In this document: positions 8,009 through 64,000 of the stretch, one piece after another
Position numbering within the stretch: the stretch's first letter is position 1
How the letters are laid out: every line of letters starts with the position of its first letter
Origin: an uncultured Alphaproteobacteria bacterium
GTDB lineage: Bacteria > Pseudomonadota > Alphaproteobacteria > Rs-D84
NCBI GenBank assembly: GCA_905233975.1
Contig: CAJOGD010000004.1
Span: 186,001-250,000 of the forward strand
Reading direction: 5' to 3'
DNA: 64,000 nucleotides
Notes under the pieces: generated by a model
What the model was told of the DNA's origin: nothing
Seen by the model: only the letters and a program-made list of their open reading frames with translations
Database searches by the model: none
Made by a program: the position numbers and the translations under genes

Positions 8009-8038
8009 TTGTTTTTTATTTGCGGTTTCTGATAGAAT
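8009..8038 (+). promoter_or_regulatory. Promoter of family-1 RNA, copy a
   Basis: A TTGTTT -35 box (8009-8014), an 18-base spacer and a TAGAAT -10 box (8033-8038). The other three family-1 copies have the same layout: TTGTTT at 18371 with TATACT at 18395, TTGTGT at 48933 with TATACT at 48957, and TTGTTT at 62722 with TAAAAT at 62746, all with 18-base spacers. The sequence TTTCTGATA around the -10 box is conserved among them. Confidence 0.7.
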
Positions 8039-8044
8039 AGTTTT

Positions 8045-8236
8045 GTCGGTGGGTGTTCCACCGGTGGGGTGTCAGAACCCGTCTATATACCGCCCGAATG
8101 GGGTGAAAAGTACTCCAACCAAAAATTGGTTGGAGGGATGTGAATAATGTTGGGGTTCGCCCTTTACAGAATAAGCACACAATTTGTATATAGATTGTTC
8201 TGAACCTCCAACCACTACGTTTTCGGTGGTATTTTT
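8045..8236 (+). ncRNA. Structured RNA family 1, copy a (leader of surface protein gene)
   Basis: It starts about 7 bases after the -10 box and ends at a terminator-like hairpin. Helices seen: hairpin CGGTGG/CCACCG (8047-8063); long-range TCAGAAC (8072-8078) with GTTCTGA (8197-8203), continued by TCTATATAC (8082-8090) with GTATATAGA (8186-8194); hairpin ACTCCAACC (8112-8120) with GGTTGGAG (8128-8135); a TGTG/CACA closing helix with a variable hairpin. The 3' hairpin ACCAC (8211-8215) with GTGGT (8226-8230) precedes T5. GGTTGGAGG (8128-8136) can instead pair perfectly with CCTCCAACC (8205-8213), which overlaps the terminator arm. Three other copies keep these pairings with different bases. I do not recognise it as a known riboswitch class. 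Confidence 0.75.
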
Positions 8237-8310
8237 AATCCCCTTCGCTGGCGAAGAGGAGGGCCACGAGGAGTGGCGGGGTAGTGGAAAAAACAAAAAA
8301 GGAGAGTCAG

Positions 8311-9819
8311 ATGTGCTTGAAAAAGTTTTTATTGTTCGGGTTGATTGCGGCGGTGTTGCCGGCGGTGGCGGAAGAAGCCGCGGATCGGAAAACCGCAACG
8401 TCGCTTAAATACGTCACACACGAATTGGATACACGACAAAACAAATTCAGTGCGGACGCGAACAAGGCCATGGAATACACCGATTCGGCCGGAACGGTGC
8501 AAAAACGCGCGGTCACATCGGAACTGGGGACCAGCACGTCCGACACATCATTACCAATGGTTGGCGGGGTTAATACTAAACTCGCCACGAAACAAGACGA
8601 TATCGCACCAATCAATGACCACACCGCCGTCACATACACCGGGCAAAGTGGCAGTATCGGCCAAAAGGGCATTTATCAAACAAACGAATCGTATGCGGCA
8701 CAATCGAATAATTTAATCGATGCCAAAACATTTAACGCCGCATTAAAGACCGGCCTTGATAGTGAATTTTTATGTTCAGAATACAAACCCGGCACAGACC
8801 TCTGTTGGGTTTGGTCGATACATAATAACGAAACAACAAACCTTATAGATTGGTCACAAACCGCCACACATGAAATGATTTTATCAGGCGTATGGACTAG
8901 GTATCAGGTGGAAACTTCTATCCAACAAGGACAATGGACATGTAAACATACCTCTGTGCCGGCCGGGACTTATACTGTTACTGTAAACTCTGATAACTCG
9001 CAAAACTGGTACCGCATAGTCACATATGTTAACGGCCAGGCGGCAGTTTCACCAACAACGGGTGGTAAAGCGACCGTCACACTTAATGAGGCCGGGGAAA
9101 TTTGGGTGTTTTGTGCCAGCGATTCGCAAATGGCCACCATAACGCAGGCGCAGATTGTTCCGGGCACAAGTGGTGAAATGCTGCCCTATACAACCCTTGT
9201 CCCGGCGGGATATACCCCGGTGGAATGGATTGAATCCAACGGAACACAGTACATTGATACGGACATCAAGGGGCACATGAATTATACATATGAACTGGAT
9301 TTCCAACAAACCGATACAGGCCAATATCGTAATTGGGGGGTGTTTAATCAATCCACTGGGCAAGGACAAAACATGAGTTTTACATGGTCAAGAGGTTGGG
9401 CGGTCCGTTGGGCATCGGCCATAAATGGTACAGATATTGTTGATTTGGGGTCAATTGATACCAAACGTCATATATTGCGCATAGTTGATGGCGAAATATA
9501 TTTTGACGGTGTTGATAGGGGGCGTTCAACCGGACATGATTCATCATTCGTGTTTAACTATAACCTGTTCTTAGGAACCATTAATCCAGGTGGTACAACG
9601 CCGACCACTAATGCTAAATCAAAATATTATTCATACAAAGTTTGGGACGCCAACGGCGATTTGATTCAAAACTTTGTTCCTGCGCGTCAAAACAGTGATA
9701 ATAAAGTCGGCATGTATGATACGGTATCCGGCCGATTCTTCCCCAGTGTTCCGGCCAACACAAACTTTGCCGCCGGCCCGGATATTTCAAACATTGTCTA
9801 TGTCCCACAGAATCAGTAA
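8311..9819 (+). CDS. Head-conserved surface protein, member 1, with lectin-like tail modules
   Basis: This 502-residue exported protein has three parts. First is a signal peptide (MCLKKFLLFGLIAAVLPAVA) plus a head shared with the other family members through about residue 175 (ATSLKYVTHELDTRQ, SLPMVGGVNTKL, DHTAVTYTG, NLIDAKTFNAALK, LCWVWSIHN). Next is a beta-rich module at about 180-300, resembling a carbohydrate-binding jelly roll. Last is a concanavalin/LamG-like module (GYTPVEWIESNGTQYIDTD to GMYDTVSGRFFPS), ending VYVPQNQ. A GTG at 8284 is in frame, but GGAGAG before the ATG at 8311 decides the start. No promoter is visible between the upstream RNA terminator (ending 8236) and the gene, so expression may depend on readthrough. 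It probably binds glycans or another surface ligand; this is inferred from fold resemblance. Confidence 0.8.
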   Translation: MCLKKFLLFGLIAAVLPAVAEEAADRKTATSLKYVTHELDTRQNKFSADANKAMEYTDSAGTVQKRAVTSELGTSTSDTSLPMVGGVNTKLATKQDDIAPINDHTAVTYTGQSGSIGQKGIYQTNESYAAQSNNLIDAKTFNAALKTGLDSEFLCSEYKPGTDLCWVWSIHNNETTNLIDWSQTATHEMILSGVWTRYQVETSIQQGQWTCKHTSVPAGTYTVTVNSDNSQNWYRIVTYVNGQAAVSPTTGGKATVTLNEAGEIWVFCASDSQMATITQAQIVPGTSGEMLPYTTLVPAGYTPVEWIESNGTQYIDTDIKGHMNYTYELDFQQTDTGQYRNWGVFNQSTGQGQNMSFTWSRGWAVRWASAINGTDIVDLGSIDTKRHILRIVDGEIYFDGVDRGRSTGHDSSFVFNYNLFLGTINPGGTTPTTNAKSKYYSYKVWDANGDLIQNFVPARQNSDNKVGMYDTVSGRFFPSVPANTNFAAGPDISNIVYVPQNQ

Positions 9820-18406: not shown

Positions 18407-18600
18407 GCCGGTGGGTGTTCCGTCGGCGGGGTGTAACGACCCTTTTGACGATGTCGAATCGCATGTTCGACAGAAAAACTCCAACCAAACAGGTTGGAGG
18501 GATGTGAATAATGCTGGCCGCAAGGAATCAGCAAAATAAGCACACAATTTCGTCAAATTGTCGTTAACCTCCAACCACTAGAATTTTCGGTGGTGTTTTT
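18407..18600 (+). ncRNA. Structured RNA family 1, copy b
   Basis: The promoter is TTGTTT (18371) and TATACT (18395). Long-range helices use different bases from copy a but still pair: TAACGAC (18434-18440) with GTCGTTA (18560-18566), and TTTGACGA (18444-18451) with TCGTCAAA (18550-18557). Other hairpins are TGTCGAA/TTCGACA (18453-18472), ACTCCAACC/GGTTGGAGG (18478-18500) and TGCTG/CAGCA (18512-18533). The alternative pairing GGTTGGAGG with CCTCCAACC (18568-18576) overlaps the terminator arm ACCAC; GTGGT (18590-18594) and T5 follow. It precedes surface protein member 2. Confidence 0.75.
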
Positions 18601-18611
18601 GTTGGTGTAAG

Positions 18612-18755
18612 TGCCGTCATTCCGCGGTATCGGGTCCCGCGAAAAACGCACAGCGTTGGGTGATTCCAAGCGGAATCTCGTCGGACCGGCAGAGAGTTAA
18701 TTCTCAGTAAAGCCCGGGGAGATACCGCCTTTCGGCGGTATGACGAGAAGAAAGG
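18612..18755 (+). repeat. Dispersed palindromic repeat block
   Basis: The order of arms is inverted compared with 9822: GTCATTCCGCGGTATCGGG first, then GATACCGCCTTTCGGCGG and GTATGACG. It lies between the RNA terminator and the ribosome site of member 2. Confidence 0.65.
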
Positions 18756-18772
18756 AAAAAAAGGAGAGCGAT

Positions 18773-19927
18773 ATGCATTTGAAAAAGTTTTTGTTGTTCG
18801 GGTTGATTGCGGCGGTGTTGCCGGCGTTTGCGGAGGAAGCGGCGGATCGGAAAACGGCGACGTCGTTGAAATACGTCACACACGAATTGGATACGCGACA
18901 AAATAAATTTAATGCGGAACAAAACAAAGCCATGGAATACACTAATTCGGCCGGCGATGTGCAGAAACGCGCCGTCACATCGGACCTGGATAATGGTGGA
19001 ACCGAATCGCTGCCCATGGTTGGGGGCGTGAATACGAAACTTGCCACAAAACAAGACGACATCGCCGCGGTTAACGACCACACCGCCGTCACATATACGG
19101 GCCAACCGGGTGGAATAGGGCGGAAAGGAATTTATCAAACAAGCGAATCGTATGCGAATCAATCCGACAACCTGATTGATGCAAAAACTTTCAATGCCGC
19201 ATTAAAGAACGGGCTTGATAGTGAATTCAAATGTAGGGACGATAACCTCGATCCGGTGTCCAATCTTTGTTGGCTCTATACGATACATAATGTAACGACG
19301 GACAATACACTTTTGCCCGCGGGATATACGCTGTTAGAATATATCGCAAGTACGGCAACAGGGCATCAAAGAATAGATACCACAATACTGCCACGTGATG
19401 GGCGTTCAATTGAAATTACATTACAGGGAACCGGCGATCGTGGCGTGCCGTTTAGTTTTGACCAAGATTGGTGCGGTGCCGGTATTATTGATTATGCTGG
19501 GCATAATGGCTTTAATTATGGTGTATGTGCTTCCGCAACAACGGCGGTCAGTGCGGTTGAAAATCAAAAGAATACTTTTTTATATTCGTTGGCCGGGACG
19601 CCGGGCAATTGGATCGGCACATTACAATTTAATGATGAAATAAAAACATCTCACTCTTCGCGCCAGATGAGTAATTTAACAATATTTGCCGGGCGTGCTT
19701 GGTTCGATTCAAATTCATATTGGGTTGGGAAAATTTATTCAGTTATTGTTCGCGATGGATCAACGATTACGAATAACTTTATCCCCGCATTGAATAGCGA
19801 TGGTGTCGCCGGTTTGTATGATATTGTTGGACGACGTTTTTATCCGAACTCTGATACAAATGGCGAACCATTTGTTGCCGGACCGGAAAATTCATCGGCG
19901 AACCTTTATATCCCACAGAATCAATAA
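18773..19927 (+). CDS. Head-conserved surface protein, member 2, with lectin-like tail
   Basis: This 384-residue exported protein begins MHLKKFLLFGLIAAVLPAFA and carries the family head through about residue 180 (RKTATSLKYVTHELDTRQ, ESLPMVGGVNTKL, SDNLIDAKTFNAALK, LCWLYTIHN). A single C-terminal concanavalin/LamG-like module follows (LPAGYTLLEYIASTATGHQ, IFAGRAW, NNFIPALNSDGVAGLYD), ending LYIPQNQ. The ATG at 18773 follows GGAGAGCG; the in-frame upstream ATG at 18740 lies in the repeat block and is rejected. The tail differs from member 1 although the heads are nearly identical, suggesting domain shuffling. Role unknown; surface attachment or ligand binding is inferred. Confidence 0.8.
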   Translation: MHLKKFLLFGLIAAVLPAFAEEAADRKTATSLKYVTHELDTRQNKFNAEQNKAMEYTNSAGDVQKRAVTSDLDNGGTESLPMVGGVNTKLATKQDDIAAVNDHTAVTYTGQPGGIGRKGIYQTSESYANQSDNLIDAKTFNAALKNGLDSEFKCRDDNLDPVSNLCWLYTIHNVTTDNTLLPAGYTLLEYIASTATGHQRIDTTILPRDGRSIEITLQGTGDRGVPFSFDQDWCGAGIIDYAGHNGFNYGVCASATTAVSAVENQKNTFLYSLAGTPGNWIGTLQFNDEIKTSHSSRQMSNLTIFAGRAWFDSNSYWVGKIYSVIVRDGSTITNNFIPALNSDGVAGLYDIVGRRFYPNSDTNGEPFVAGPENSSANLYIPQNQ

Positions 19928-27123: not shown

Positions 27124-27376
27124 TTGACTATTGTTTGGCAAATTTGATAAAATCTGAATTGAGCTGAATTGGAATTCGGTTCAGGGTTGTAAGAGGCCCA
27201 TAAGTAACCGGCACATTATGTCGTTATCCGCAAAAATTCCCGATATTTTGTGCCGTCATTTTATCATGCCCCGGATTTCGGGGTGCCTGTGGAGTATATC
27301 TGAAGTCCGCGGGAATCATTGTTGCTTATGATTTCTTACCACCCCGATACCGTAAATTCGCATGCGGTAGTTTTTT
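27124..27376 (+). ncRNA. Structured RNA family 2, copy a, with own promoter
   Basis: The promoter is TTGACT (27124-27129) and TAAAAT (27148-27153), 18-base spacer; RNA from about 27160. Helices: GAGCTGAATT with AATTCGGTTC; GGGTT with GGCCC; CGGCACA with TGTGCCG around an A/T-rich loop; long-range CATAAGTAAC (27199-27208) with GTTGCTTATG (27321-27330); CCCCGGATTTCGGGG and the GGGGTG...CACCCC-type closing helix. The conserved core GTGCCTGTGGAGTATAT is identical in copy b. A terminator hairpin TACCG/CGGTA followed by T6 ends at 27376. It precedes the broken surface protein gene at 27592. I do not recognise the class; it is not 6S, tmRNA, RNase P or SRP RNA by core motifs. Confidence 0.72.
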
Positions 27377-27419
27377 AGTGGCTAGTGCAAGTGGTTAGTG
27401 TGTAGTGAGACTTACAGAG

Positions 27420-27560
27420 AGCCGTCATTCCGCTGAAAAGCGGAATCTGCGCGGGGTTGCAGAGTGCGAGTTCCCCTCCGTGAAATCAGCCACAAAAAAC
27501 GCCATGCGTTTTTCGCGGGGCCCGATACCGCGGTATGACGGGAACAAAAGCGCGGTATGA
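27420..27560 (+). repeat. Dispersed palindromic repeat block
   Basis: GTCATTCCGCTGAAAAGCGG, the CCGTGAAATCAGCCACAAAA arm and GCGGGGCCCGATACCGCGG, followed by a second GCGGTATGACG. Confidence 0.65.
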
Positions 27561-27591: not shown

Positions 27592-29072
27592 ATGCAATTG
27601 AAAAAGTTTTTGTTGTTTGGGTTGTTTGCGGCAATATTGCCGGCGGTGGCGGAGGAAGCCGCGGACCGGAAAACCGCAACATCGTTAAAGTATGTCACAC
27701 ACGAACTTGACACGCGCCAAAACAAATTTACTGCGGAATCGAACAAGGCCATGGAATACACTAATACGGCCGGAACGGTGCAAAAACGCACAGTTAAATC
27801 TGATTTGGGTAGCGACACGTCCGATACATCACTGCCCATGGTTGGTGGTGTTAACACGAAACTTGGCGGCAATCAACGATCACACTGCGGTCACATATAC
27901 CGGAACGGCCGGAACAATCGGACAAAAGGGTATTTACCAAGACACTGGAACATATATTGAACAAAGCAACAACCTGATTGACGCAAAAACATTTAACGCG
28001 GCACTAAAGAAAGGACTCGATAGCGAATTTTTATGTTCAGAATACAAACCGAGTACAGATCTTTGCTGGGTTTGGTCGATACATAATACCGAGCCCGTAA
28101 GTATAAATTTATTCGATATGTCACAGATTCCTACAACCCAATATATTGTTCATAATCCCGATGGTTCTGTAACGGTAACCACGTCATCGACCGATAGTGC
28201 AGTAAATACTGGTAAAAAACTTTCACAACTTGCCACCGGGCTGCAGGTTGGTAAAACGTATAAGTTTTGGAACAGATAAAGAAATTGTCTTGCCGGGACC
28301 GCCTCGTGTAGGCTGGTTTAATGGTAGAACGCAAACCATAACGCAAGATATGTTAAATTCGACTGTATATCTTTATGCAAGTGGCGTGAATACCACCGCA
28401 ACCATATACGATATTCAGATAACCGAAGTAAACCCCGAAATGCCGTTTGAAACCCTTGTTCCATCTGACTACACGCCGGTGGAATGGATTGCAACATCGG
28501 GGACACCGTATATTGATACGGGGATTGTGGGCCGCAGTGGTATTTCGGTCAAGGCGAAGTTCATGCTTAATACATCGGCCAATGGTGCGTTGTTTGGAAA
28601 CAGAATGAGTACTGAAACCCGATTTTTCCCAATGTTATGGTTCGCCACGAGTGGCGGGCCGGTACGCTGGGATACCGCGGTGAATTCCGATAATTATGGG
28701 GATCCAATATTAGCAAATACCATGTACATTGCAGATTTTACATCTTCGGCTTCGAGTTTTGCACTTGATGTTAACGGTTATCGAATGTTAAGTGGATCAT
28801 CGGTTGGGACAAATACGAATAACCTGTGGATGTTTGGGGTCAATAATAATGGGAATCTGCAATATCCGTTCAATGGTAAAATGTTTTTTGCCAATATATG
28901 GCAGGGCGATACATTGGTTCGTGAATATATCCCCGCAAGGCGCAATAATGATAATGTTGTTGGGGTATATGATCGGGTGTCGAACAGGTTCTTTACCTAT
29001 TCTGGCGCAGACGGCACATTTATCGCCGGACCGGATATTCCCAATAATGTCTATGTGCCACAGGAACAGTAA
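27592..29072 (+). pseudogene. Head-conserved surface protein, member 3, broken by two frameshifts
   Basis: The gene starts MQLKKFLLFGLFAAILPAVA after GGAGAGCG and follows the family head to SLPMVGGVNTKL. About 20 bases encoding the ATKQDDI segment are missing near 27863, moving the frame. The head then resumes in another frame (INDHTAVTYTGTAGTIG to LCWVWSIHN). A second shift lies near 28264: one extra T in a run of four turns YKFGTDKEI into a stop at 28279. The third frame encodes a binding module and a concanavalin-like module (DYTPVEWIATSGTPYIDTG to GVYDRVSNRFFTYSG), ending VYVPQEQ. Otherwise it is full length (about 490 residues). It may be decayed, phase-variable or a sequencing error; the preceding RNA belongs to family 2. 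Confidence 0.75.
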
Positions 29073-35511: not shown

Positions 35512-35761
35512 TTGACTTGATTTGTATGGTTTTGATAAAATGATTGACGAATCAGATGGGAATCTGGTTCGGGGCTGTGAGAAGCCCGCATCTGTTCGGT
35601 GCAATGCATCGTAATCCGGAAAATTTCCGTATGTTTTGCACCGTAATGTTTTCCCCGCATGTCGGGGTGCCTGTGGAGTATATATAAAGTCCATGGGAAT
35701 CATTAACAGATGTGATTTCTCAACACCCCGACCGCGTGGTTTCCACTGCGGCACTTATTTT
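35512..35761 (+). ncRNA. Structured RNA family 2, copy b, with own promoter
   Basis: The promoter is TTGACT (35512-35517) and TAAAAT (35536-35541), 18-base spacer. Helices: GAATCAGAT with ATCTGGTTC; GGGCT with AGCCC; GGTGCAA with TTGCACC; long-range CATCTGTT (35589-35596) with AACAGATG (35705-35712); TCGGGGTG (35672-35679) with CACCCCGA (35724-35731). The core GTGCCTGTGGAGTATAT is shared with copy a. The terminator CCGC (35732-35735) with GCGG (35748-35751) is followed by a T-rich tail. It lies 182 bases upstream of surface protein member 4. Confidence 0.75.
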
Positions 35762-35942: not shown

Positions 35943-37106
35943 ATGTTTTTGAAAAAGTTTTTATTGTTCGGATTGTTGGTGGCAATGTTGCCGGCGGTGG
36001 CGGAAGAAGCGGCGGACCGCAAGACCGCAACGTCATTGAAATATGTCACGCACGAACTTGACACGCGACAAAACAAATTCGGCGCGGACACTAACAAGGC
36101 CATGGAATACACCGATTCGGCCGGAACGGTGCAGAAACGCGCGGTCAAATCTGATTTGGGCACCAGCACGTCCGACACATCACTGCCCATGGTTGGGGGT
36201 GTTAATACGAAGTTAAATCAGAAACAGGACGACATAGACCCGTTTAACGATCACACCGCGGTCACATATACTGGAACGGCCGGCGGTATCGGGAAGAAAG
36301 GAATTTATCAAACAACCGGCACATACGCGGAACAATCCGACAATTTAATCGACGCAAAAACATTCAACGCGGCATTAAAGAATGGTCTTGATAGCGAATT
36401 CGTATGTAGGGAAGATAACCGCGATCCGGTGTCTGGACTTTGTTGGCTCTATACGATACATAATGGTACGGCGGGAAATTCTTTGCCGGACGGATATACA
36501 GAATTGGAATATTTAATATTTGATGGGCAGTCATATTTTGATACCGGTATTGTTTTGAGGGATATACATAACATCGAAAATGTTATAGAAATGCAAAACG
36601 CTAACCCTGATAGTAACGCATTTCAAACATGGACGGGCTTTATGTACCAGAGCACAACACCAAGATATGGTATAAACACGTATAGTGGCAGATGGATGAT
36701 TGGGGTTAATATTACCATTAATTCTGGTTTGCCACAGGATGGAAATAAACATACTTTACGATTTGTGACAACCGACGGCACGCAAACATTGTATGATACC
36801 AACGGGTCTGTATTATCTAACGGTTCGTTGACAGGCAGTTTTGCGAGTAATGCATTGTCTTTATATATTGGTGCAAGAAATCAAGGAAGCAGTGTGACAA
36901 ACTATGTGATTGGTAACATAGGGCGGACATGGTTGTCACAGAATGGCACAAAGCTTTATGATTATATACCGGTGCGCAATGGTGCCGGGGACCTTGGTAT
37001 GTATGATATGGTAAGCCGTACGTTTAAACCAAATGCTGGACAAGGGACACTTACCGCCGGGCCAGAGGTAGGTACTAGCAATATCTATATTCCCCAGAAT
37101 CAATAA
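35943..37106 (+). CDS. Head-conserved surface protein, member 4, with lectin-like tail
   Basis: This 387-residue exported protein starts MFLKKFLLFGLLVAMLPAVA after AAAAGGGGAG. The family head runs to about residue 180 (YVTHELDTRQNKF, SLPMVGGVNTKLNQKQDDI, NLIDAKTFNAALKNG, LCWLYTIHNG). The concanavalin/LamG-like module is SLPDGYTELEYLIFDGQSYF, LSLYIGARNQGSS and YIPVRNGAGDLGMYDMVSR, ending IYIPQNQ. The head is nearly identical to that of member 5 at 49329 while the tails are unrelated. It is preceded by a family-2 RNA and flanked on both sides by repeats carrying the same 80-base insert, so the gene sits inside an apparent repeat-bounded cassette. Confidence 0.8.
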   Translation: MFLKKFLLFGLLVAMLPAVAEEAADRKTATSLKYVTHELDTRQNKFGADTNKAMEYTDSAGTVQKRAVKSDLGTSTSDTSLPMVGGVNTKLNQKQDDIDPFNDHTAVTYTGTAGGIGKKGIYQTTGTYAEQSDNLIDAKTFNAALKNGLDSEFVCREDNRDPVSGLCWLYTIHNGTAGNSLPDGYTELEYLIFDGQSYFDTGIVLRDIHNIENVIEMQNANPDSNAFQTWTGFMYQSTTPRYGINTYSGRWMIGVNITINSGLPQDGNKHTLRFVTTDGTQTLYDTNGSVLSNGSLTGSFASNALSLYIGARNQGSSVTNYVIGNIGRTWLSQNGTKLYDYIPVRNGAGDLGMYDMVSRTFKPNAGQGTLTAGPEVGTSNIYIPQNQ

Positions 37107-48932: not shown

Positions 48933-49151
48933 TTGTGTTTTATTTTCGTTTTCTGATATACTGGTCTTGCCGGTGGGTGTTTCGCCGGTGGGGTGTCAAG
49001 ACCCGTTTTAGCGATGCCGGTTTTCGGCGAAAACTCCAGCCAATGTGTTGGAGGGTTGTGAATAATGTGGGGCCTGGCCCCGTCAAAATAAGCACACAAT
49101 TTCGCTAAAATTGTCTTGAACCTCCAACCACACGTTTTCGGTGGTGTTTTT
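48933..49151 (+). ncRNA. Structured RNA family 1, copy c, with promoter
   Basis: Promoter TTGTGT (48933) and TATACT (48957). Helices: CCGGTG with CGCCGG; long-range TCAAGAC (48996-49002) with GTCTTGA (49113-49119), and TTTTAGCG (49006-49013) with CGCTAAAA (49103-49110); GCCG/CGGC hairpin; CTCCAG with TTGGAG; GGGGC/GCCCC apical hairpin. TTGGAGG (49048-49054) can also pair with CCTCCAA (49121-49127), which abuts the terminator arm ACCAC (49127-49131); GTGGT (49141-49145) and T5 follow. It precedes surface protein member 5. Confidence 0.75.
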
Positions 49152-49164
49152 CATTAGTGGTCAA

Positions 49165-49305
49165 CGCCGTTATTCCGGCGAAAGCCGGAATCCTATCGGA
49201 AGTGTCGCGGACCAAAGCCGCGGAAAGCCCAGGGAGATACCGCGTGAAATCACCCACAAAAAACGCCATGCGTTTTTCGCGGGACCCGATACGGCGGTAT
49301 GACGA
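49165..49305 (+). repeat. Dispersed palindromic repeat block
   Basis: GTTATTCCGGCG...GCCGGAATCC and the CCGCGTGAAATCACCC arm with GCGGGACCCGATACGGCGG, immediately before the member 5 ribosome site. Confidence 0.65.
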
Positions 49306-49328
49306 AAAAAAAAGAAAAGGAGAGCGAT

Positions 49329-50453
49329 ATGCAATTGAAAAAGTTTTTGTTGTTTGGGTTAATTGCGGCGGTGTTGCCGGCGGTGGCCGAAGAAGCCGCG
49401 GACCGCAAAACCGCAACGTCGTTGAAATATGTCACACACGAATTGGACACGCTTCAAAACAAATTCGACGCGGAACAAAACAAAGCCATGGAATACACCA
49501 ATGCGGCCGGAACGGTGCAAAAGCGCGCCGTCACATCGGAACTGGGGACCAGCACGTCCGACACATCACTTCCCATGGTTGGTGGGGTGAATACAAAATT
49601 AAATCAGAAACAGGACGACATCGCCGCGGTTAACGACCACACCGCCGTCACATACACTGGGCAACCCGGCGGTATCGGCCAAAAGGGAATTTATCAAACA
49701 ACCGGCACATACGCGGAACAAAGAAATGACCTGATTGACGCAAAAACATTCAATGCGGCATTAAAGAATGGTCTTGATAGTGAATTTGTATGTAGGGAAG
49801 ACAACCGCGATCCGGTGTCCGGACTTTGTTGGCTTTATACGATACATAATACATACGAAGAATCCGCACAGCCTTATGTTTCGGCGACCGGCACCGTTGT
49901 CCAAGATGGCACCCCGACACCAACGAATCCAATTTATCCCGTTTTCTATCGCCAGGGCGATATGGTATTGCGCAAAGTCGGTGACTATGCCGATTCATTC
50001 GACGCCACAACACATAAAATCACAAGACGCGTTGGTGTAAAAGTACTTGATGGGACGGAAAATTGGAGCCTACAAACATACCCTAACTATGTAATGGATG
50101 GTGCCACAACTTTTTGGAATGTCGGTGCAATACAGGACAACTTGTCGGTGAGGGCAGAAAGACCAGCTATTGGAATAAGTAACTATTTAATTAATGCGCC
50201 TGTGTCCTCAGCAGGCTCGACTCCTAAAATAGCTAACAGTTTTTCTATTGGTTCAACTGCACACACTGTTCATACTTTATGGATGCGTATAGAAGGGGAA
50301 AAAACTGTTGCCGAATGGAAACAATGGCTTGCCGACCAATACAACGCCGGCACGCCTGTGACAGTGTATTATCCACTCGCCACACCGGTGGAAGAGGATT
50401 GGACCGAAACAACGTATAATGAAAACGTCTATATCCCCCAGAATCAGAATTAG
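49329..50453 (+). CDS. Head-conserved surface protein, member 5, with phage-fibre-like tail
   Basis: This 374-residue exported protein starts MQLKKFLLFGLIAAVLPAVA after GGAGAGCG. It has the family head to about residue 178 (one change, DTLQ for DTRQ). The tail is not the concanavalin-like module of other members. It starts YEESAQPYVSATGTVVQDG and includes GDMVLRKVGDYADSFD, ITRRVGVKVLDGTENW and EWKQWLADQYNAGTPVTVYY, patterns I associate with Firmicutes prophage tail-fibre and surface proteins. It ends VYIPQNQN, with one residue after the shared tail. The same head with an unrelated tail strongly suggests modular exchange. The gene is preceded by a family-1 RNA. Confidence 0.8.
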   Translation: MQLKKFLLFGLIAAVLPAVAEEAADRKTATSLKYVTHELDTLQNKFDAEQNKAMEYTNAAGTVQKRAVTSELGTSTSDTSLPMVGGVNTKLNQKQDDIAAVNDHTAVTYTGQPGGIGQKGIYQTTGTYAEQRNDLIDAKTFNAALKNGLDSEFVCREDNRDPVSGLCWLYTIHNTYEESAQPYVSATGTVVQDGTPTPTNPIYPVFYRQGDMVLRKVGDYADSFDATTHKITRRVGVKVLDGTENWSLQTYPNYVMDGATTFWNVGAIQDNLSVRAERPAIGISNYLINAPVSSAGSTPKIANSFSIGSTAHTVHTLWMRIEGEKTVAEWKQWLADQYNAGTPVTVYYPLATPVEEDWTETTYNENVYIPQNQN

Positions 50454-62436: not shown

Positions 62437-62655
62437 TTAAAAAACACCGCATTGGAAACCAAGCGGTCGGGGTGTTGAGAAATCACAAGCAATCATGACC
62501 CCCATGGACTTCATATATACTCCATAGGCACCCCAACCAACGGGGCGGTACCAGAATAACGGCACAAAATATCGGAAATTTTGCGGATTACGACATAATG
62601 TGCCGATTGCTTGCGGGCTTCTCAGGGCCCCAAACCAGATTCCCATCTGTGTTCG
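62437..62655 (-). ncRNA. Structured RNA family 2, copy c, orphan, minus strand
   Basis: On the minus strand: promoter TTGCGT (plus 62685-62690) and TAAAAC (62661-62666), 18-base spacer. Helices: CAGAT with ATCTG; GGGC with GCCC; CGGCACA with TGTGCCG; long-range CAAGCAAT (plus 62606-62613) with ATTGCTTG (plus 62486-62493); GGGGTG with CACCCC. The core with TGGAGTATATATGAAGTCCA is conserved. A terminator CCGC/GCGG with T6 ends near 62437. No gene follows on this strand, so this copy acts alone or is a displaced leader. Confidence 0.72.
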
Positions 62656-62756: not shown

Positions 62757-62961
62757 TGTCGGCGGGTGTTCCGTTGATGTGGTTTGAAAGCCACCTCACA
62801 AAGCGTCAATTTACGGCGCGGTTGTTGCGTCGTTTTTTGATGAAAAATTCCTGGCACTTTGGGGGCCAGGAAGGCGGTAAAATATCTTTTAATATACCGC
62901 ACAATTCTTTGTGATTGCTTTCAACCTCCTGGCCACTTGAAGTTATTTCGGTGGTGTTTTT
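62757..62961 (+). ncRNA. Structured RNA family 1, copy d
   Basis: Promoter TTGTTT (62722) and TAAAAT (62746). Almost all paired bases differ from copies a-c yet still pair: TCGGCGG with CCGTTGA; TTGAAAGC (62784-62791) with GCTTTCAA (62917-62924); TCACAAAG (62796-62803) with CTTTGTGA (62907-62914); TTCCTGGC (62848-62855) with GCCAGGAA (62865-62872); GCGGT with ACCGC. GGCCAGGA (62864-62871) can alternatively pair with TCCTGGCC (62927-62934), overlapping the terminator arm CCAC; GTGG (62951-62954) and T5 follow. Confidence 0.75.
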
Positions 62962-62996
62962 ATTCGTTGTTAGTGAAAGGAAAAAAGGGGAGGAAA

Positions 62997-64000
62997 ATGG
63001 GTTTGAAAAAGTTTTTGTTGTTCGGGTTGATTGCGGCGGTGTTGCCGGCGTTGGCGGAGGAAGCGTCGGACCGCAAAACCGCAACGTCATTGAAATACGT
63101 CACGCATGAATTGGATACGCGTCAAAACAAATTTGGCGCGGAACAAAACAAGGCCATGGAATACACCGATTCGGCAGGAACGGTGCAAAAACGCACAGTC
63201 ACATCGGATTTGGGCAGCAGCACGACGGACACATCACTGCCCATGGTTGGGGGTGTGAACTCAAAGTTAAATCAAAAACAGGACGACATAGACCCGTTTA
63301 ACGACCACACCGCGGTCACATACACCGGAACGGTCGGAACAATCGGCCAGAAAGGAATTTATCAAACGACCGAATCGTATGCCGAACAATCGGATAATCT
63401 TATTGACGCAAAAACCTTTAACGCCGCATTAAAGAACGGACTTGATAACGAATTCAAATGCAGGGACTATAAACCGGATACGAATCTTTGCTGGGTTTAT
63501 TCGATACATAATAATATTGGTGATGGGTCATTGCCGCCCGAATATACACAGTTGGAATATATTGAAAGTACAGGGACGCAATGGATTGATACGGAAATTT
63601 ATCCGTCTGATAGCACAACGACGCAAGTCGATTTTCAATACACAGAACTTCGGGCGAATGACACGATTTTTGGTGCTAATACTCAGAATGCAGTTGAATA
63701 TTACGGTCTTGGGTTGGCCCATGGCACCCAATGGCGTTTGTGGTATGGCAGTGGTGGTTCTCCATGGGTTGTATTTGGTGATGCGGACACGAATAAACAC
63801 AGGGTTGTATTAACGGATAGAAAGATATATTTTGATGGTGCCACCGTTCCCAGTGCAACATCGCGTTTAACACTAACATCGCCATCATCACGACCGATTA
63901 CATTATTCGCATATAATTATCGTGATACAGCACCAGTGTCATATTTCGCAAAAGCAAAGATATTCGGTGTTGTAATCAAACAGGGCCAAGAAACCGTCCG
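62997..64000 (+). CDS. Head-conserved surface protein, member 6, 3' end outside window
   Basis: The frame is open from the ATG at 62997 to the window end (334 complete codons). It starts MGLKKFLLFGLIAAVLPALA after GGGGAGGAAA. The head follows the family (EEASDRKTATSLKYVTHEL, SLPMVGGVNSKLNQKQDDI, NLIDAKTFNAALKNGLDNE, LCWVYSIHNN). It continues into a concanavalin/LamG-like module (EYTQLEYIESTGTQWIDTE, LTDRKIYFDGATVP). The PQNQ tail would lie beyond the window. Only 35 bases separate the T-run of RNA copy d from the start codon, with no promoter between, so transcription must come through the RNA. Confidence 0.85.
   Translation, partial: MGLKKFLLFGLIAAVLPALAEEASDRKTATSLKYVTHELDTRQNKFGAEQNKAMEYTDSAGTVQKRTVTSDLGSSTTDTSLPMVGGVNSKLNQKQDDIDPFNDHTAVTYTGTVGTIGQKGIYQTTESYAEQSDNLIDAKTFNAALKNGLDNEFKCRDYKPDTNLCWVYSIHNNIGDGSLPPEYTQLEYIESTGTQWIDTEIYPSDSTTTQVDFQYTELRANDTIFGANTQNAVEYYGLGLAHGTQWRLWYGSGGSPWVVFGDADTNKHRVVLTDRKIYFDGATVPSATSRLTLTSPSSRPITLFAYNYRDTAPVSYFAKAKIFGVVIKQGQETV

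Follow-up and report, generated by a model that had tools for sequence, protein, structure and literature searches.

A multiplied relative of sRNA-Xcc1, probably a transcription attenuator, upstream of exported-protein genes

The 64,000-nt stretch of DNA analyzed here (the window) carries four copies of a structured RNA that forms the 5' leader of genes and is not itself a stand-alone gene. It is probably a member of the sRNA-Xcc1 (RF02221) superfamily that has been multiplied in this genome and is used as a transcription attenuator. Its structure and kinship are strongly supported by sequence comparison; it is predicted to act as an on/off switch at the start of messages for exported proteins. 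The sRNA-Xcc1 of Rfam is a small RNA of unknown target. The present data indicate that it makes up the 3' portion of a longer leader with two competing folds, which gives it a directly testable mechanism.

Anatomy of the leader RNA

The original prediction of a four-copy structured RNA was borne out, each copy lying where it had been placed. A covariance model built from 20 copies in this genome, with the four window copies among its training sequences (R1), gives them full-length scores of 113.8 to 197 bits, and the two copies compared with dinucleotide shuffles, 1 and 4, both fold 5.3 standard deviations better. E-values of R1, and of a wider model (R2) used below, come from a short calibration only. 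The features of copy 1 and the positions of the other three are as follows.

8009..8038, + strand: copy 1, promoter-like site (-35 TTGTTT at 8009-8014, 18 nt, -10 TAGAAT at 8033-8038), from sequence
8045..8238, + strand: copy 1, whole leader RNA from P1 to the T tract (179.2 bits with R1; fold z -5.3)
8045..8065, + strand: copy 1, hairpin P1, expected transcript start (7 covarying pairs, E<0.05)
8066..8078, + strand: copy 1, 5' strand of P2, GGGGUGUCAGAAC, partner 8197-8209 (4 covarying pairs, E<0.05)
8082..8090, + strand: copy 1, 5' strand of P3, its partner the P8 loop at 8186-8194, a pseudoknot (cis/trans test; pair TCTATATAC/GTATATAGA)
8113..8120, + strand: copy 1, strand A, CUCCAACC, 5' arm of P5 (alignment and covariation analysis of 112 homologues)
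8128..8136, + strand: copy 1, strand M, GGUUGGAGG, partner either A (P5) or Z (pairing counts; RF02221 outer helix)
8139..8177, + strand: copy 1, P6 with the conserved GAAUA / AAUAAG internal loop (loop conservation)
8181..8196, + strand: copy 1, hairpin P8 (8181-8183 with 8194-8196), its loop the 3' strand of P3 (column pair 239:257, A-U/U-A, 112/112, E<0.05)
8205..8213, + strand: copy 1, strand Z, CCUCCAACC, common to the base of P2, the 5' arm of the terminator and the M:Z helix (pairing and covariation)
8211..8236, + strand: copy 1, terminator hairpin P7 and T tract (sequence; T-tract count in homologues)
18407..18602, + strand: copy 2, barcodes TAACGAC / TTTGACGA (197 bits with R1)
48969..49153, + strand: copy 3, barcodes TCAAGAC / TTTTAGCGA (168.6 bits with R1)
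62758..62963, + strand: copy 4, diverged, M GGCCAGGA, Z UCCUGGCC (113.8 bits with R1; fold z -5.3)

Covariation was assessed in 112 diverse homologues, aligned with MAFFT on sequence alone, by a G-test with average-product correction against a null that reshuffles the inferred substitutions along the tree; this procedure imitates R-scape but is not R-scape itself. Seventeen column pairs were significant at E<0.05: seven in P1, four in P2 and one each in P6, P8 (239:257), M:Z and P7, with the remaining two reflecting a joint A-M-Z change in one clade. The compensatory change originally read as selection on RNA structure is thus upheld with more homologues and a tree-keeping null. The long-range helices quoted for the four copies (TCAGAAC/GTTCTGA, TAACGAC/GTCGTTA, TCAAGAC/GTCTTGA, and TTGAAAGC/GCTTTCAA) were all found and correspond to P2, while the “second covarying helix” said to continue them is P3, whose partner is the loop of the small hairpin P8. 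The P3/P8 pseudoknot as such, the competing M:Z helix and the exported-protein genes downstream are features absent from the original prediction.

The promoter layout and 3' terminator hairpin proposed at the outset are also supported. A -10-like hexamer ends 6-7 nt 5' of P1 in 74 of 117 homologues, so the transcript is expected to begin at P1, a hairpin with a GUGUU-type loop. Helix P2 (GGGGUGU....ACC with GGU....AACCUCC) encloses the rest of the RNA. Directly 3' of its 5' arm is the strand that pairs with the P8 loop to form P3; the longest Watson-Crick run there has a mean of 6.8 nt in cis but of 3.1 nt for strands drawn from different copies, and there are 103 distinct P8 loops among the 112 homologues. 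The junction is filled by P4, P5, and P6, the last with a near-invariant internal loop (GAAUA opposite AAUAA), and the unconstrained minimum free energy structure consists of exactly five hairpins in 138 of 160 homologues. At the 3' end, P7 is followed by at least five T residues within the next 8 nt in 104 of 112. In some copies (L015, L017, L007, and L008) the T tract gives way to an inverted repeat of the type TTTCGTTTATTTG...CAAATAAACGAAA, which may be an inserted element.

A conserved leader ORF was not found among the 112 homologues; 56 of these lack a start codon 4-13 nt downstream of GGAGG. Where a short ORF exists, its frame and peptide vary, and leader-peptide attenuation was rejected on this ground.

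Competing strands and the proposed switch

Strand M, the 3' arm of P5, is complementary to both A and Z. Z is the base of P2 and also overlaps P7, and the M:Z helix is mutually exclusive with P5, the base of P2, and P7. Two exclusive arrangements, M:Z on the one hand and the P5/P7 fold on the other, have the layout of an attenuator. At each of the nine M:Z positions 103-112 of 112 sequences are paired, and at the P5 positions 95-111 of 108-112, both counted after the alignment of M had been shifted once by hand in 18 sequences whose two strands carry a matching one-base insertion; such an insertion characterizes one clade, where M/Z is GGUCAGGAGG/CCUCCUGACC.

M:Z is also kept where its sequence changes, as in the diverged copy 4 of the window. 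L088 and L079 have compensatory M/Z changes (GGCUGGAGG/CCUCCAGCC and GGUUGGGGG/CCCCCAACC, respectively) that strand A does not follow; a further altered pair, GGUUGGAGA/UCUCCAACC, is still complementary; and distant genomes keep the helix with other sequences (GGCAGGAAG/CUUCCUGCC and GACUGGAAG/CUUCCAGUC). In several altered copies A:M is weakened with M:Z intact, a pattern that speaks for transcription attenuation. By single-column significance M:Z has one pair only (184:273), largely driven by one clade, and the rest of the case for it consists of conserved complementarity.

The proposed switch would work as follows. Transcription would start at P1, and the RNA would fold with P2 as closing helix, the P3/P8 loop pseudoknot, P4, P5 (A:M), P6, and P7. 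The last, a terminator, would halt RNA polymerase some 12 to 180 nt 5' of the start codon for the exported protein. In the alternative state, M would leave A and pair with Z. As a putative antiterminator, M:Z would occupy the P2 base together with the terminator's 5' arm, so that P7 could not form and the gene would be read. Candidate triggers are another RNA, an RNase P cut at the start of M, or a ligand or protein bound to the P6 loop.

A nested M:Z helix costs 5-24 kcal/mol relative to the terminated fold, which is ahead by 13.6 kcal/mol on average, and a thermodynamic preference for M:Z was rejected because the terminated fold is energetically better. Readthrough would therefore need a strong trigger, kinetic trapping, or a pseudoknotted form. 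With folding calculations favoring it by ~14 kcal/mol on average, the terminated state would be the default.

Kinship with sRNA-Xcc1 and likeness to C4 RNAs

The RNA had been proposed as an undescribed family, and Rfam is indeed silent on the window directly: at gathering scores the window copies have no match, copy 1 has none even at E<=10, and RF02221 (curated threshold 53 bits) is found neither in the window nor in its own genome. Relatives, however, bridge these copies to sRNA-Xcc1. L168, from the same class, matches R1 at E 3.8e-8 and RF02221 at E 1e-6 (51.7 bits); G049 C4:23049, from the same genus, matches them at E 5.2e-13 and E 6.3e-6 (39.7 bits), respectively; and a further relative, L240, scores 56.2 bits with RF02221. 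Outside the class, R2 finds copies that Rfam assigns to sRNA-Xcc1 (L242, 76.6 bits; L245, 71.8; L243, 56.5). Since relatives found by R1, a model made from this genome, also match RF02221, the family cannot be called wholly undescribed.

The RF02221 model spans M to Z only, and its curated outer helix is M:Z. In alignment it shares with the window family this outer helix, P6 with a GAAUA/AAUA loop, P8, and the 3' strand of P2; its members also have the upstream 5' strand of P2, outside the Rfam model. The window family is set apart by a terminator with a T tract after Z, by its many copies per genome, and by its position before exported-protein genes. It is a new branch of the superfamily, hugely expanded and with a different wiring.

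Leaders of the sRNA-Xcc1 type precede phage antirepressor and toxin genes in several classes, the genes following RF02221 members including ant (Rac-SA53), kilA-N (Vibrio phage Cla), Bro-N, P22_AR_N, Rha, AlpA, and SymE. A 2025 survey reports sRNA-Xcc1 upstream of symE in Xanthomonas integrons (PMC12444791), and the title of the 2011 paper by Chen, as cited there, calls it a trans-acting, integron-encoded sRNA. In Xanthomonas the mature form is reported as a stable RNA of 88 nt (PMC2996969), which fits processing as well as it fits attenuation. In the literature searched, the 2011 sRNA-Xcc1 paper excepted, sRNA-Xcc1 was not linked with attenuation or with control of the C4 or antirepressor kind.

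Processing to a C4-like antisense RNA is the main rival of the attenuator, although an unlikely one. RNase P would cut out the M-to-Z piece, before the GG of M and at R-C after Z, and the excised piece would act through the P8 loop and the 3' strand of P2 on target sites in its own or other messages. RF02221 covers just this piece, and the 88-nt Xanthomonas RNA (PMC2996969) would suit it. Maturation of C4 RNA is carried out by RNase P at a GGW motif, and a large C4-like group occurs in A. baumannii (PMC5320573), likewise with multiple copies in one genome. M begins with GGU in 95 of 112 homologues, and in 96 of 112 the three bases after Z are ACT, ACC, or GCC. Both features are compatible with RNase P, but only about half have C in the third place after Z.

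Near the start codon, RF02221 members often carry a second copy of the P2/P3 5' sequence (6.94 against 5.35 in shuffled sequence; e.g., L267, L271, L253, and L261). Such antirepressor-type leaders, with a paired strand both upstream and downstream, mirror the logic of the C4 RNA of phages P1/P7 (RF01695; c4-2 RF02944; c4-a1b1). The window family, in contrast, has no such downstream target (mean 4.80 against 4.85 shuffled in 112 copies) and a T-tract terminator there instead. For lack of this repeat, the window family offers no support for an antisense effect on the ribosome-binding site. No copy scanned matches the Rfam C4 clan (RF01695, c4-2 RF02944), and one weak c4-2 match, in L257, lies >1 kb from the RNA. 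The relationship to C4 is best taken as an analogy only.

Downstream genes, copy number, and a sister family

In the window, each copy of the leader is followed by a gene for a putative exported protein.

8311..9819, + strand: exported-protein gene after copy 1 (paralogue at 91% identity)
18773..19927, + strand: exported-protein gene after copy 2 (ORF context; paralogue search)
49329..50453, + strand: exported-protein gene after copy 3 (ORF context; paralogue search)
62997..64000, + strand: exported-protein gene after copy 4, running off the window (paralogue search)

Start codons are found a median of 26 nt after the RNA match. By a simple hydrophobicity rule, used for all calls of export or signal peptides here, 128 of 152 downstream ORFs are signal-peptide-like, a moderate enrichment since the window background is also high (26 of 44 genes). 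A translated search with the downstream exported protein (N-terminus LKKFLLFGLIAAVLPAVAEEAADRKTATSLKYV) found 56 close paralogues in this genome, with a constant N-terminus and a variable remainder; the members in the window are at 8311-9819, 18773-19927, 27592, 35943-37106, 49329-50453, and 62997-64000. Four of the family tested against Pfam had no match. Counting RNA matches down to E 0.05, four of them weak, 46 of the 56 paralogues are downstream of this leader or of a sister RNA described below (22 after this RNA only, 22 after the sister only, 2 near both), and 10 are near neither. REP-like palindromic repeats (such as CCGGCGAAAGCCGG and CCGCCTTTCGGCGG) are present between terminator and gene at 18610-18760, 49160-49310, and 27420-27560.

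The genes that follow the RNA in other genomes encode many exported proteins unrelated to one another and, in some cases, are small helix-turn-helix or phage-like genes. A minority of copies are before genes with no signal peptide (e.g., L128, L162, and L278-L280). L278, L279, and L280, in this genome, precede small helix-turn-helix proteins (with a Pfam HTH match for one), in line with a phage ancestry. Elsewhere, L128, L102, L109, L133, and L137 precede a conserved protein of ~385 residues (MSTARIVQ.PII.DKSGKTV...) with no signal peptide; the one tested had no match in Pfam.

This range of genes bears on the other explanations. Terminator-type riboswitches and T-box leaders resemble the window family in their 5' leader position, competing helices with a terminator, and tandem copies, the difference being that no Rfam riboswitch or T-box match was obtained. 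A small-molecule riboswitch, in which the P6 internal loop and the P2/P3/P8 pseudoknot would bind a metabolite and control the terminator, would account for the near-invariant A-rich loop, the pseudoknot, the 5' leader position, the terminator, and the tandem copies. It is nonetheless very improbable, as the downstream genes are of many unrelated kinds whose common denominator is export or phage control and not a pathway. Conservation of the P6 loop in all copies, while the helices vary freely, would also suit an RNA-binding protein that recognizes this loop and sets termination; a leader of that kind is given slightly less credence still. A functionless structure in a duplicated 5' UTR, hitchhiking with a paralogous gene family, would explain why most copies in this genome precede one such family, but is already contradicted by the covariation, the unrelated downstream genes elsewhere, and distant homologues that keep the fold with different sequence.

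All four copies first proposed are real, but the genome total is far higher, with 27 matches at E<1e-10 in 1.04 Mb; tandem copies exist (e.g., L098). R1 matches 137 of 142 genomes of the same family plus several other families of the order, and R2 finds matches in 34 of 385 genomes of the class. Three IMG/VR viral contigs (L224, L225, and L226) have full copies of the RNA, at E 1e-28 to 1e-36; a search of plasmids with copy 1 gave no match. One lineage with a small genome has thus multiplied an sRNA-Xcc1-type RNA before exported-protein genes, with the 27 strong copies and ~25 of the sister RNA, which would be a remarkable instance of a regulatory RNA of phage type put to genome-wide use.

A further idea, doubtful at present, is that these domesticated phage-type RNAs form an addressed control network, each leader having its own P2/P3 “address.” Terminated or processed leaders would then act in trans on those leaders alone whose address matches and, if so, would pick which members of a large exported-protein repertoire get made. 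The P2/P3 pair differs in all 20 of the copies from this genome that were compared, with single addresses shared; orthogonality of the pairs was not significant (0 shared against 1.5 expected, permutation P=0.16).

The sister family has its own M/Z pair (about CGGGGUG/CACCCCG) and a different conserved core. Of its ~25 copies in this genome, nearly all are before the same paralogous genes. Three are in the window, all with the same P1-P7 layout.

27164-27377, + strand: sister RNA
35548-35760, + strand: sister RNA
62438-62650, - strand: sister RNA

The paralogue following the first of these (27592-28279) matches query residues 1-95 only, in a short frame, and may be broken. The third faces away from copy 4, toward the 3' end of a gene on the opposite strand, with no gene of its own.
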